Origin: Gloeocapsopsis crepidinum LEGE 06123
GTDB taxonomy: Bacteria > Cyanobacteriota > Cyanobacteriia > Cyanobacteriales > Chroococcidiopsidaceae
Length of the DNA: 37,489 nt
Direction of reading: 5' to 3'
Assembly: GCF_015207655.1 (NCBI RefSeq)
Contig: NZ_JADEWN010000061.1
Location: 1-37,489 of the forward strand
Part shown: positions 8,817-12,675 of the stretch, in pieces
Layout: the number at the start of each line of letters is the position of its first letter
Position numbering within the stretch: position 1 is the stretch's first letter
Notes under the pieces: model-generated
Told to the model about the DNA's origin: nothing
Database searches by the model: none
What the model saw: the letters and a program-made list of their open reading frames with translations, nothing else
Made by a program: the position numbers and the translations under genes

Positions 8817-10382
8817 ATGGAAAGCTTCGATTATGTGATTCTGGGAGCGGGACTAGGTGGACTTTCAGCAGCAGCGTGTTTGACGCGACAAGGACATCGA
8901 GTTGCTGTCTTAGAAAAACACTACTTACCTGGTGGATGTTGCCATACTTTCGACTATGGTGAGTATCGCTTTTGTGCCGATGTACATTACATTTCACAAT
9001 GCGGTTCTGGACAGGCGATCGCCCAGTTTCTCAACTATATTGAACGCGATGTCGAATTTAACTCGCTCGATCCTGAGTGTATCGACAGAGTAGTCACACC
9101 CGAAGTTGATTTTAGAATTCCTTTAGGATGGGAAAATTTGCGATCGCGTCTCTTAGCAACTTTTCCAGAAGAAACTGACGCTATTAATCGTTATTGCGAT
9201 GCAATCAAGCAGTTACACCAGGAAATTCACAGTTTAGTGCGCGAGGTCAGTTGGTACGATCAAAAATGGTCAGATTGGTTAAAACTACCAAAATATTGGA
9301 ACTTATTTACTAAACGAAATTGGACACTACAAGACCTTTACGATCGCGTTGGGCTATCTCCGAAGCTACAAGCTGTATTAGCAGGTCAAAGTGGTGATTA
9401 TGCCCTACCACCAAATGAAATTGCCTTACTGACTCATACTGCCCTTGTCTGGGATTATTCCGAAGGCGCTTATTATCCTAAGCATCACTTTAAACACTTT
9501 GTAGACACAATTGTTGAAGCTATTCGATCAGGTGGCGGTGTTGTTCAATTATCGACTTTAGTAGAACATATAGAAGTTAAACACCACCAAGTCCAAAGCG
9601 TCACTGCTGGAGGTAAAACGTATCAAGCAAAAGTTGCATACATCAGCGATCTTGACCCTAAGTTGACTGTACAGTTGATGCATGATTCTCATGCTTTGAG
9701 TCAACAAGAACTAAAGCGCCTTACTGGTTATGAGTACTCAGCTAGTGCCTTTAATATCTATCTAGGATTAGATAGTAGATTCAATCCTCAAAACTATGGA
9801 ATCGGCAATTGGAATATCTGGTATTACCCCAATAGCGATCTCAACCAAGCTTATCAACAACAATTATTAGGCAATCTGCACCATCCCTGGATTTTCCTCT
9901 CTTGCCCTACGATGAAATCTGATGAATCAGGAATGGCTCCTCACGGTCATCATGTTTTAGAAATTGCGACTGTTTGTCCCTATGAGCCATTTAAGCACCT
10001 ACACGAAACCGATCCCAAAGCCTATAAAGCCAAAAAGCGCCAAATTTACCAAGAGATCATGAATAGTGTGCGGGATTTGATTCCTGATGTCGATACTTAT
10101 GCCCGCATGAAAGTTCCTGGTACTCCAACAACGAGCGAATACTACTTAGGACAACCTCAAGGCAATATTTATGGAGCAAAACTCACACCAAAACAGGTTG
10201 GCTTAAATCGTTTGGGATATCACACCGAGTTGCCCAATCTTTTCTTAGTAGGAGCAAGCGCAGGCTATCCAAGTGTACCTGGAGTTATTGGCAATGGGAT
10301 GGATGTCGCTGAATTGCTAACAGGGCAATCTATTTGGAGTCACCAAAAAGCTAAAACTACTGGGGAGTTAGTGTACCACTAG
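8817..10382 (+). CDS. FAD-dependent oxidoreductase, CrtISO/phytoene-desaturase-like
   Basis: This 521-residue flavoprotein belongs to the phytoene dehydrogenase / carotenoid isomerase / retinol saturase superfamily. The N-terminal Rossmann motif is ILGAGLGGLSAAACL (8-22), with the FAD ribose-binding acidic residue in VLEKHYLPGG. The C-terminal FAD closing motif is LFLVGASAGYPSVPGVIGNG. Such enzymes isomerise or desaturate carotenoids or related polyenes. The true CrtISO is one candidate, but cyanobacteria carry several paralogues and I cannot tell them apart by eye. AGGAGG at 8806-8811 fixes the ATG start. It stands alone with a long upstream region. Confidence 0.85.
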   Translation: MESFDYVILGAGLGGLSAAACLTRQGHRVAVLEKHYLPGGCCHTFDYGEYRFCADVHYISQCGSGQAIAQFLNYIERDVEFNSLDPECIDRVVTPEVDFRIPLGWENLRSRLLATFPEETDAINRYCDAIKQLHQEIHSLVREVSWYDQKWSDWLKLPKYWNLFTKRNWTLQDLYDRVGLSPKLQAVLAGQSGDYALPPNEIALLTHTALVWDYSEGAYYPKHHFKHFVDTIVEAIRSGGGVVQLSTLVEHIEVKHHQVQSVTAGGKTYQAKVAYISDLDPKLTVQLMHDSHALSQQELKRLTGYEYSASAFNIYLGLDSRFNPQNYGIGNWNIWYYPNSDLNQAYQQQLLGNLHHPWIFLSCPTMKSDESGMAPHGHHVLEIATVCPYEPFKHLHETDPKAYKAKKRQIYQEIMNSVRDLIPDVDTYARMKVPGTPTTSEYYLGQPQGNIYGAKLTPKQVGLNRLGYHTELPNLFLVGASAGYPSVPGVIGNGMDVAELLTGQSIWSHQKAKTTGELVYH

Positions 10383-10391
10383 TTTGTCAAC

Positions 10392-10440
10392 GAGAGGGAC
10401 TAAACAGCTATCAGACTTTTTAGCCATCAAAATCCCTCTC
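10392..10440 (+). terminator. Weak possible terminator of the CrtISO-like gene
   Basis: Complementary 8-bp arms GAGAGGGA (10392-10399) and TCCCTCTC (10433-10440) lie just after the stop codon but are separated by 33 bases, and no clean T-run follows. They could form a long hairpin that ends transcription or protects the mRNA 3' end. Confidence 0.35.
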
Positions 10441-10571
10441 AATTCTGTGATATTTTTACGCAGTGCTAGGGAGTTAAAAGGCAGAGTGGTGTAAGTGGCT
10501 GTAACTGCCTATTCATCAGCTTTTCTTCACCTAAAATTCAAAATTAAATTGCCTAGATTTTCCCCATATTC

Positions 10572-10590
10572 AGTACATATGTACTATAAT
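10572..10590 (+). promoter_or_regulatory. LexA-box-like operator overlapping a -10 element
   Basis: AGTACATATGTACT (10572-10585) is a near-perfect palindrome that fits every position of the cyanobacterial LexA box consensus RGTACNNNDGTWCB. Its last base is the first base of a perfect TATAAT (10585-10590). No good -35 is visible at 17 bp. A repressor bound here would block RNA polymerase. The consensus is from established work on Anabaena-type LexA; binding here is inference. The downstream genes are the two unknown ORFs at 10677 and 10987. Confidence 0.65.
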
Positions 10591-10676
10591 AGATGAAGTA
10601 GATTCATCGAGCCTCAGCATAAGCAGTCAATGGCTCTACGGCGTACTCATCACGGATAAATTCAAGCTTTTGTCCT

Positions 10677-10946
10677 ATGACCAAACACTATCTTCTTAGC
10701 CTTAATCCAACAGCGAAGCATGACTGGGATCGTTGCGCTCTACGCGATCCGATTACCGCTAAGCGCCCAGAGCTAGCAAAATTGATTGCCGAAGCGATTG
10801 ATGCAGAACCAGGCACTTACCTTGTGTCTGTCAATATTGAAGTGAAAGTTTTAGAGCAAGCTCCTATGCATCAAGCCGAGCAGCTACCAATTAGCCCCGC
10901 AGAACGTTCGTCTACCCACGCTCAATTCAAGGAACTAGCCGCATAA
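10677..10946 (+). CDS. Hypothetical protein, first gene of putative LexA-controlled unit
   Basis: I do not recognise this 89-residue protein. It is soluble, with a basic N-terminal part (MTKHYLLSLNPTAKHDWDRC), a predicted helix rich in Ala/Glu, a short beta segment (TYLVSVNIEVKVLEQA), and a polar Ser/His/Gln tail. There is no signal peptide or membrane helix. The ATG at 10677 lies about 86 bp after the TATAAT and has no evident Shine-Dalgarno. It is followed 40 bp later by the 125-residue ORF on the same strand, and a strong terminator closes the pair. The operator context suggests a DNA-damage or stress role, which is inference. Confidence 0.7.
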   Translation: MTKHYLLSLNPTAKHDWDRCALRDPITAKRPELAKLIAEAIDAEPGTYLVSVNIEVKVLEQAPMHQAEQLPISPAERSSTHAQFKELAA

Positions 10947-10950
10947 TCTC

Positions 10951-10985
10951 TCCCTAATTTCTGACCTCTGATCCCCAACCCCTCG
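10951..10985. repeat. Heptanucleotide repeat (5 units) inside the two-gene unit
   Basis: Five 7-bp units, TCCCTAA TTTCTGA CCTCTGA TCCCCAA CCCCTCG, fill almost the whole gap between the 89- and 125-residue ORFs. They are the reverse complement type of the GGGGTTA/GGGGTGA units at 19.47 and 25.72 kb. They end two bases before the ATG of the second gene, where the ribosome-binding site should be. Confidence 0.7.
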
Positions 10986-10986
10986 T

Positions 10987-11364
10987 ATGATGACAATGCA
11001 ATTGAGTCATTACCCAGCGGCGATCGCCCAAGCTGCTCAACGGGTAAATGAACTCGACTCTCAAATTATGGCGGTGCAACAACTTGTTTACCGCGAAGAA
11101 GGTAATGCAGACACTCGCTCAGCTTTTGATCCAGATTTGAAAAATGATACTCAACGACGATCGCGTCGCTTTGAGTTACTGCTAGTTAATCAAGAATATC
11201 AAACCGCACTGAATACATTAATGCAGTTAACGGCAGAAAAAGCCAATGCTCTAGCGCATCTAGAATATCTCCGTAACCAGTTTAGTGTTGCAAAACTAGA
11301 GTGTCGGCGAGCGATCGCACAGCAACTTACTGACTTTGAATCGAGAGAACTCGTAGGTTTGTAA
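10987..11364 (+). CDS. Hypothetical coiled-coil protein, second gene of putative LexA-controlled unit
   Basis: This 125-residue soluble protein is almost entirely helical by composition, with heptad-like spacing of Leu/Ala (residues 10-30 and 65-115) that suggests a two-helix coiled coil. A polar middle (REEGNADTRSAFDPDLKNDT) interrupts it. The family is not recognised. Starts at 10987, 10990 or 10996 are possible because several Met codons cluster and the upstream region is heptad repeat without a Shine-Dalgarno. It shares a promoter and terminator with the preceding ORF. An accessory role in DNA metabolism would fit the operator, but nothing in the protein itself shows that. Confidence 0.7.
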   Translation: MMTMQLSHYPAAIAQAAQRVNELDSQIMAVQQLVYREEGNADTRSAFDPDLKNDTQRRSRRFELLLVNQEYQTALNTLMQLTAEKANALAHLEYLRNQFSVAKLECRRAIAQQLTDFESRELVGL

Positions 11365-11416
11365 TTCTAAACACAAATTAATTTTTCTAGCTAACAGCCT
11401 GATAGTCAAGACTGTT

Positions 11417-11450
11417 AAAGCAGTGAACTCATCTTCGCTGCTTTTTTCTT
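11417..11450 (+). terminator. Strong Rho-independent terminator of the two-gene unit
   Basis: AAAGCAGTGAA (11417-11427) pairs with TTCGCTGCTTT (11434-11444) over 11 positions with one G-T wobble and a 6-nt loop. TTTCTT follows, so the run of T is continuous with the stem end. It lies 53 bp after the stop of the 125-residue ORF. Confidence 0.88.
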
Positions 11451-11525
11451 TGGCGTTCATTATGTAAAAAATGCTGACTCAGCTTTTCTTGATTCAGAAT
11501 GGTATAAGTTAGTTGCAATTATTTC

Positions 11526-11906
11526 ATGACTCAAGTTACATCAGAAGACATTGCCAAATTTCGGGAAAAGTTACAAAACTATCCCGATGCCTCAACCGCC
11601 CTCGCAGCAATAGAAGATTGTGAGGGTAATCTTGAAGATGCGGCAATGGTGTTAGCCATTCGAGCAGGGCAACAACCAGACATTGCCAATGCAGAATGGT
11701 TAGACAGTTTAGCAAAAAAATGTCGTGCAATTATCTGCCGCGAAGAAAACAAACACGCACTACAGAGCGACGACTATGCTTCAGTGATAAGACATTTAAC
11801 GACAACAAGGCTTTGTCCACCACTGTTAGTTATTCCAGTTTTGATGTATGTATTACAACAGGGTATGGATCAATTTTGTCAGCCTTTAGATACAGTTTCT
11901 ACTTAA
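11526..11906 (+). CDS. Conserved-looking hypothetical protein (126 aa)
   Basis: I do not recognise a named family. Residues 1-50 resemble a small helical bundle with a UBA-like pattern (DIAKFREKL, STALAAIEDCEGNLEDAAMVLA). The middle contains a Cys/Arg-rich stretch (KKCRAIICREE). The C-terminus is hydrophobic (LCPPLLVIPVLMYVLQQGMD), which could be one membrane helix or a buried helix. It lies after the terminator of the previous unit, so it has its own promoter, which I cannot place. Heptad repeats follow its stop codon. Confidence 0.7.
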   Translation: MTQVTSEDIAKFREKLQNYPDASTALAAIEDCEGNLEDAAMVLAIRAGQQPDIANAEWLDSLAKKCRAIICREENKHALQSDDYASVIRHLTTTRLCPPLLVIPVLMYVLQQGMDQFCQPLDTVST

Positions 11907-11911
11907 AGGTT

Positions 11912-11964
11912 GGTCATGGGTAATGGGTAGTAGGTATTCTTTCCAACTACCAGTTACCAGTCCT
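11912..11964. repeat. Heptanucleotide repeats in two opposed blocks
   Basis: GGTCATG GGTAATG GGTAGTA GGTATTC (11912-11939) is followed by CAACTAC CAGTTAC CAGTCCT (11944-11964). The second block resembles the complement of the first, so the transcript could fold back. It lies between two convergent genes and might act as a weak bidirectional terminator. Confidence 0.65.
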
Positions 11965-11988
11965 TAAGTTATGTTTATTTTTACTCAC

Positions 11989-12675
11989 TTACTTAGTAGA
12001 CAAGTGCTGAGCTATAACTTGTGCTTTTAGCTTTAATAGTGGTTTATCACATATTCCATACTGCATCAAGCCATCAACTGTGTGAACTAAATAATCTGCA
12101 CAAGTGCCGAGTTTTCCGTTGGCTGTTGCTAGGCTATTGACAACAACTTCATTGGAAACATTGCCCGCATACATGACATGACTGTGATTAATAGTAAAGG
12201 CGATCGCATCCCAACGTTCTTTGCCATCCACAACTTTTACCCAACGTGGAGTGTAGGAACCGACTACCATTTCTCGCCGCCACAGAATGAGTAATTCTGT
12301 TAGTACATCTTCTGCGGGAATGCGATATGCAATACCACGACAGCTACCACCACGATCGAGTCCTAACATTAACCCTGGATTTTCTGGTGTTCCTCTACCA
12401 AGTGGCGTCCATAGACAAAAGCGACGATGCCATCCGTAAATTGTACCGACACGGCGATCGCTAAATTTCACTGTAGGATTCCAAATCAATGAACCATAAG
12501 CAAATACCCAGACATCTGAGTGCGAGCGCTGTTGGAGAATATCTTGTATGGACTGCTCTAGCTCAGTTTCATTCAAGATACGCAGATCTAATCCTGATTG
12601 TGCTACTAGTTCCTGTAATTGTCGCGATTCTAAGTAAGCACGAGTAAGCGCAATAGCTCCTTGACCGTCACTCAT
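11989..12675 (-). CDS. ChaC-type gamma-glutamylcyclotransferase
   Basis: This enzyme of about 228 residues is expected to cleave glutathione into 5-oxoproline and Cys-Gly in the cytoplasm. The ChaC fold marks are present: the substrate loop FAYGSLIWNP (YGSL at 60-63 from the chosen start), the GWHRRFCLW segment, and the catalytic glutamate in LWRREM (about 135). A poorly conserved 55-residue helical extension precedes the domain. I chose ATG 12675. A TTG at 12693 directly after an in-frame stop would add six residues. Both neighbours are unrelated, so it is monocistronic. Confidence 0.88.
   Translation of the reverse strand: MSDGQGAIALTRAYLESRQLQELVAQSGLDLRILNETELEQSIQDILQQRSHSDVWVFAYGSLIWNPTVKFSDRRVGTIYGWHRRFCLWTPLGRGTPENPGLMLGLDRGGSCRGIAYRIPAEDVLTELLILWRREMVVGSYTPRWVKVVDGKERWDAIAFTINHSHVMYAGNVSNEVVVNSLATANGKLGTCADYLVHTVDGLMQYGICDKPLLKLKAQVIAQHLSTK

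Follow-up and report, generated by a model that had tools for sequence, protein, structure and literature searches.

A conserved LexA-type promoter ahead of two small genes of Gloeocapsopsis crepidinum LEGE 06123

The contig NZ_JADEWN010000061.1 of Gloeocapsopsis crepidinum LEGE 06123 (37,489 nucleotides, referred to as the window) carries two small genes behind what resembles an operator for LexA, which raises the question whether the pair belongs to the LexA response of cyanobacteria and what its products may do. The following features were assigned to the locus, all on the + strand:

10561-10567, +, weak -35 region TCCCCAT, inferred from promoter columns and missed by a consensus scan
10572-10585, +, predicted LexA box and operator AGTACATATGTACT, within the core promoter, from sequence fit
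10585-10590, +, -10 element TATAAT, its first T being the last T of the LexA box
10677-10946, +, ORF1, open reading frame of 89 aa, no known family
10929-10943, +, codons for the C-terminal KELAA of ORF1, an ssrA-like end and putative ClpXP degron, from tail comparison
10987-11364, +, ORF2, open reading frame of 125 aa, predicted to form a long helical hairpin; distantly related proteins in phages and plasmids
11417-11444, +, intrinsic terminator ending the two-gene unit, from terminator prediction and folding
11526-11906, +, ORF3, open reading frame of 126 aa, no Pfam match, neighbour past the terminator

Promoter, genes and terminator

AGTACATATGTACT is a perfect palindrome of 14 bp and, as a sequence-only reading of the locus had claimed, fits the cyanobacterial LexA box; it is the sole match in the window to the LexA consensus RGTACNNNDGTWCB published for Nostoc (PMC3091678). 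The perfect TATAAT, which that reading saw abutting the box, shares one base with it, and the operator thus overlaps the predicted core promoter. A sigma-70 scan of positions 9800-12200 reported no + strand promoter, missing this one because its -35 region is poor. Among 106 aligned promoters (see below), the columns 5-10 bp ahead of the box lean towards T, C/T, C/G, C, C and A, and these -35-like columns stand 17 bp ahead of the -10 element. The exact 14-mer is present as a single copy in the 5.67-Mb genome and is one among eight AGTAC-N4-GTACT sites; the extended motif AGTAC-N4-GTACT-ATAAT occurs exactly only once, at this promoter. Looser searches led to 13 matches of a related pattern with at most one mismatch in the window (6.5 expected) and, in the genome, to 23 matches of the 14-mer with at most two mismatches (8 in controls), 165 matches of the looser AGTAC-N4-GTACT (119 in reversed controls) and 74 of the looser AGTAC-N4-GTACT-ATAAT (66 in reversed controls). 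As the last two counts lie near those of their reversed controls, near-matches alone say little.

The two small unrecognised proteins of 89 and 125 aa that had been proposed were recovered as ORF1 and ORF2, and the strong terminator assigned behind them was confirmed, with a folding energy of -16.9 kcal/mol (z -3.68) for 11398-11450. ORF3 is probably a separate unit in the window. It appears UBA-like by eye only; several relatives also have it behind the pair, and in G118 it directly follows ORF1. At 95-808 on the - strand, the window further encodes a possible other stress regulator, a protein whose Peptidase_M78 domain is IrrE-like and which matches HTH_3 below the threshold.

Conservation of the operator and its link to LexA

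ORF1 has a match in 47 of 120 order genomes and in 51 of 386 drawn from the phylum, with 12 common to both and 86 in total. The 250-300 bp upstream of ORF1 were scanned for AGTAC-N4-GTACT, allowing at most one mismatch in its 10 fixed bases, and a box was detected in 75 of the 86 genomes (by batch 30/30, 11/17 from the order, 8/13 from others, 22/22 and 4/4), compared to 11 of 1500 base-shuffled upstream regions. Four genomes showed two mismatches (G010, G086, G137 and G452), and the box was absent from seven, namely four of family f28 as well as G318, G359 and G398, the last with just 127 bp of upstream sequence for the scan; these 11 genomes comprise two with two mismatches and four boxless ones in the batch of 17, and two and three, respectively, in the batch of 13. 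A second sample, the loci of the best 80 of 196 ORF1 relatives scanned within 200 bp, gave a box with at most one mismatch in 79/80 and with two mismatches in the remaining one. TATAAT was likewise found at the ORF1 promoter in 79/80 of these loci, and control windows 500-700 bp upstream led to 0/79 at up to one mismatch and 2/79 at two. Most loci stem from Nostocales or Chroococcidiopsis relatives, and due to this kinship the counts of boxes, of the protein tails and of the spaced genes described below are not independent. Had orthologues lacked the palindrome upstream, this would have counted against the sequence-only reading; it is conserved, and the proposed LexA-controlled operon is supported.

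A promoter logo was built from 110 promoters, of which 106 gave distinct rows. Its fixed box columns reach 1.2-2.3 bits and the four central ones 0.3-1.0 bits, compared to a maximum of 0.65 bits in the upstream flank and 1.3 bits in some downstream columns; box column 10 holds G in 65% of the rows and A in 34%. The four boxless genomes among the 47 of the order with ORF1 all belong to f28 and have retained ORF1. An altered LexA motif as the cause was rejected, as the lexA genes of f28 retain the box AGTAC-N4-GTTCT, indicating that the box was lost at ORF1 with LexA specificity unchanged. The pair was also observed outside the order (G137, G266, G363 and G359), with the box directly after a putative -10 element in G266 and G363 and, in G137, an exact box lying about 640 bp ahead of ORF1. 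At one locus (L312 of G042), the ORF1 reading frame meets stops after about 20 codons, with the box (one mismatch) and TATAAT still in place. A contig titled Tatlockia sp. MAG, by name a gammaproteobacterium (L092), carries the operon with 74% identity in ORF1, which is probably a binning error.

The host genome encodes LexA (match E 1.9e-60), and its lexA gene has the box AGTACGAATGTTCT, its recA gene AGTATATCTGCACT, and AGTACATCTGTACT stands directly ahead of its ssb gene (SSB family PF00436, E 1.1e-25), the ORF1 box being the most symmetrical of the four. The LexA regulon of Nostoc PCC 7120 includes lexA, recA, ssb and uvrA. Including its flanks, the host recA box is identical to the one given for Chroococcidiopsis sp. 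CCMEE 029, a strain in which a fusion to the recA promoter reacts to H2O2, to UVC and to gamma rays (PMC13416735); taken alone, this identity would make that desiccation- and radiation-tolerant genus the probable source of the window. The lexA box AGTAC-N4-GTTCT was found in 12/12 further genomes, a hand-picked set of four f28 members and eight others. LexA (TIGR00498) was matched in 87 of the 120 order genomes, 79 of them above the cut-off; all 47 ORF1-bearing genomes are among the 87 and none of the 33 genomes without a LexA match has ORF1, a co-occurrence confounded by ancestry. As judged from sequence, control of the gene pair by LexA is well supported, and it is very probable that both genes form part of the LexA (DNA-damage) response.

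ORF2 was present in the locus sequence examined for 48 of the best 80 of 196 ORF1 relatives; in the other 32 loci ORF1 was found there without it, some of the contigs being short. Gap lengths, determined in 18 of the 48 loci with both genes, were at least 370 bp (up to 3 kb) in 12 and shorter in six. In all 12 spaced loci ORF2 has a site resembling AGTAC-N4-GTACT-ATAAT, located 144-235 bp ahead of the gene and with 1-3 mismatches in 15 fixed bases (at most two in 10/12), compared to 37/2400 first-order Markov controls at up to three mismatches and 2/2400 at up to two. As the spaced loci are related, they reflect fewer than 12 separate events. When the gap was 108-320 bp, 0/6 loci had an ORF2 site at up to three mismatches, and scanning 260 bp ahead of ORF2 in the other 30 loci gave none at up to one. 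Four further genomes with spaced genes, possibly overlapping with species of the 80 loci, carry an ORF2 box with one mismatch, and G017, also with spaced genes, has none within 1400 bp. Its two genes are separated by a 394-aa IS605-type transposase gene (OrfB_IS605; L039:206-1390). In L141 the ORF2 match is split into two pieces about 170 bp apart, which suggests a broken copy. Both genes thus seem to be under LexA-type control, and the tendency of ORF2 to have its own box-type promoter when standing apart speaks for both products being needed in one response.

The two proteins and their relatives

The ORF1 protein of the window gave no match in Pfam or NCBIfam (E≤1), PHROGs or PADLOC, and 43 ORF1 members searched against Pfam (E≤0.1) gave one stray match; neither search pointed to the SulA or DinI family. 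A variable linker separates its conserved part of some 65 aa from the C-terminal end, which is conserved as well; P11, W17, P31, G46, L49 and L59 are invariant in 43 sequences. Its structure model is poor (mean pLDDT 66.3, pTM 0.38). PDB profile matches to designed 'Bagel' and cell-surface repeat proteins (E from 1.3e-06) were discarded as repeat artefacts; they cover residues 3-18 only, and no single stretch passed. ORF1 relatives were also sought in viral contigs and none was found, a small ORF in L169 being a weak candidate.

The C-terminus of ORF1 resembles the host tmRNA tag ANNIVPFARKQALVAA, as both end in two small hydrophobic residues (KELAA in ORF1, ...ALVAA in the tag). AA or VA form the end of 104 of 116 distinct ORF1 sequences, and of 23/32 after thinning at 80% identity, compared to 3/414 and 3/132 background proteins. 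The count comprised 138 ORF1 proteins (the 116 being distinct) from L033-L062, L088-L167 and L203-L232 minus L207 and L219, leaving out the copies in L172-L200 and L309-L312; the 414 background proteins were mechanical ORFs of at least 200 aa from the same 80 loci, and the 132 were ORFs of at least 150 aa from other loci and the window. Tail entropy amounts to 0.7 bits at the last residue and about 3 bits ten residues inward, and all four Ala codons are used at the last position, indicating that the protein rather than the DNA is conserved. The tail is probably an encoded ssrA-like ClpXP degron.

Counting distant members, the ORF2 family occurs in 25 of the 120 order genomes and in 21 of the 386 from the phylum. 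AlphaFold predicts helices at residues 6-46, 54-67 and 69-122 (mean pLDDT 92.4), hence a long helical hairpin, in line with the coiled coil foreseen for the second protein. The window protein matches no known family, and weak hits to Pfam and PHROGs were dismissed as noise from coiled coils. A few members match unnamed PHROG families better (phrog_2058 in 2/19, best 2e-05; phrog_1069 in 2/19, best 1.7e-04), and a scan of five distant relatives led to one match at E≤0.01 (phrog_15639, 0.0084). PDB profiles gave nothing meaningful (best E 0.23), and Foldseek retrieved nothing from the PDB or viral libraries at E≤0.001, although TM values of 0.7-0.8 are reached by small phage proteins; the fold matches are generic. 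UvsY was not matched in Pfam by the window ORF2 (E≤1) or by 19 members (E≤0.1).

Distant relatives of ORF2 with about 30-42% identity occur in four viral contigs, three plasmids and chromosomal loci. They stand near a Sak4-like AAA_24 ATPase (L084), with terminase, integrase and sigma factor (viral contig L168), or with head and portal genes (viral contig L169), and eight loci of such relatives had no box upstream. With one relative as query, tblastn gave nothing in a phage collection. In G017 a 204-aa relative follows a CBASS-like trio of SMODS CD-NTase, ThiF and Prok-JAB (L083:2008-6544), with one small ORF in between. Directly upstream of the relative in L169, a 79-aa ORF resembles ORF1 weakly, with hmmsearch E values of 0.0082 and 0.063 (two profiles, small set) and hhalign probabilities of 28.5% and 16.8%; searches with this ORF and its neighbour matched their own contig alone. 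Upstream of both, two near-palindromes ACACT-N6-AGTGC around a TATAAT were noticed by eye (L169:5540-6360, IMG/VR contig) and are possibly phage operators in place of the LexA box.

Possible functions of the gene pair

From the box, the architecture, their conservation, the box-type promoters at both genes when apart and the conserved tail, all read from sequence, we infer LexA binding, a single transcript, damage induction and proteolysis of ORF1, and the best explanation, which we consider probable, is a LexA-repressed SOS operon for an effector pair. A LexA dimer on the palindrome between -35 and -10 would exclude RNA polymerase, and upon inactivation of LexA both small proteins would be made from one transcript ending at the hairpin. 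ORF1 would be transient, its ssrA-like C-terminus (ELAA/ELVA/REAA) delivering it to ClpXP, so that its effect would fade after induction ends. ORF2 might be a helical-hairpin protein of phage-related stock that assists DNA recombination or the handling of single strands as an oligomer, and ORF1 would be its short-lived partner or brake. The role in recombination, which is suggested weakly by the company kept by the relatives of ORF2, is the weakest step and doubtful. Tentatively, both proteins may form an undescribed cyanobacterial SOS module, in which a protease-timed protein and a phage-derived helical partner, each under LexA control when apart, act as a recombination or division checkpoint.

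Several SOS proteins such as RecN, SulA and YneA are short-lived and carry C-terminal degrons. ORF1 shares LexA-type control and an ssrA-like C-terminus with these three, but no sequence relation to them was found, and degradation of ORF1 would be expected from its tail. A checkpoint of the SulA/YneA type, with ORF1 briefly blocking division during repair before being degraded and ORF2 as its scaffold, would combine exactly this control and this tail as a timed inhibitor needs them, and fits the 32 loci in whose examined sequence ORF1 stands without ORF2; as ORF1 has no usable structure and gave no family match beyond the stray one, the comparison is by analogy and we regard such a checkpoint as rather unlikely. 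DinI and RecX act on RecA, and the small size of both proteins, their LexA-type control and the phage relatives of ORF2 would also suit a feedback modulator of the SOS switch, in which ORF1 and/or ORF2 bind LexA or RecA. Phage GIL01 gp7, which acts on LexA (PMC4551915), is likewise a small protein in a LexA-controlled unit; similarity of the pair to gp7 or DinI-type modulators was not detectable in Pfam or NCBIfam, which leaves this reading unlikely. Phage recombination genes, namely neighbours of Sak4-like ATPases and T4 UvsY, offer a further comparison: a distant ORF2 relative lies near such an ATPase in L084, and for UvsY the fold match of ORF2 was no better than that of unrelated hairpins and a sequence match was not found in Pfam.

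LexA might instead control the operon in a carbon, redox or salt response, as the LexA of Synechocystis is reported to act outside SOS (PMC3091678; PMC5101192) and the Anabaena LexA to cleave without RecA, with Anabaena lexA reportedly uninduced by UV-B or mitomycin C (PMC5101192), so that LexA control need not imply DNA damage. However, the Synechocystis LexA is described as being without the cleavage residues (PMC3091678), the same type of box precedes lexA, recA and ssb of the host, and the recA promoter of a near relative responds to damage (PMC13416735), making this quite unlikely. A toxin-antitoxin or prophage-remnant pair silenced by LexA, with ORF1 as labile antitoxin, would agree with the degron-like tail, the distant ORF2 relatives in phages and plasmids and the L169 contig, where the weakly ORF1-like ORF precedes an ORF2 relative. 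We hold this improbable, since the genes are not obligatorily together (ORF1 without ORF2 in 32/80, some contigs short), are elsewhere separated by as much as 3 kb and served by promoters of their own, and gave no PADLOC match. That the palindrome serves another repressor is very improbable: binding of LexA is deduced from the fit to its consensus and f28 lost the box at ORF1 while its lexA kept one, but lexA (12/12 genomes) and the host ssb share the left half-site with a near-identical right one, and ORF1 co-occurs with lexA.

Compared to the known cyanobacterial LexA regulon, ORF1 shares the type of operator (RGTACNNNDGTWCB or AGTACWNWTGTACT) and its place in the promoter region, but none of the targets named in the relevant parts of PMC3091678 or PMC13416735 was matched to ORF1 or ORF2. 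Titles and opening lines of abstracts likewise gave nothing pointing to the pair, which has no searchable name; it may be listed somewhere as a putative LexA target, e.g. in supplements. By naming custom, all4790 and alr4905 presumably both encode more than 100 aa, so ORF1 should be neither of them. Both appear as unnamed LexA targets in Table 1 of PMC3091678.

There is dispute over whether cyanobacteria run an SOS response like that of E. coli (PMC5101192). With a box more symmetrical than those of lexA, recA and ssb, kept across many genera and joined by an own box at ORF2 when the genes stand apart, the operon would make a good reporter and allow this question to be tested directly, and two protein families without known function can be named as likely effectors of the damage response.
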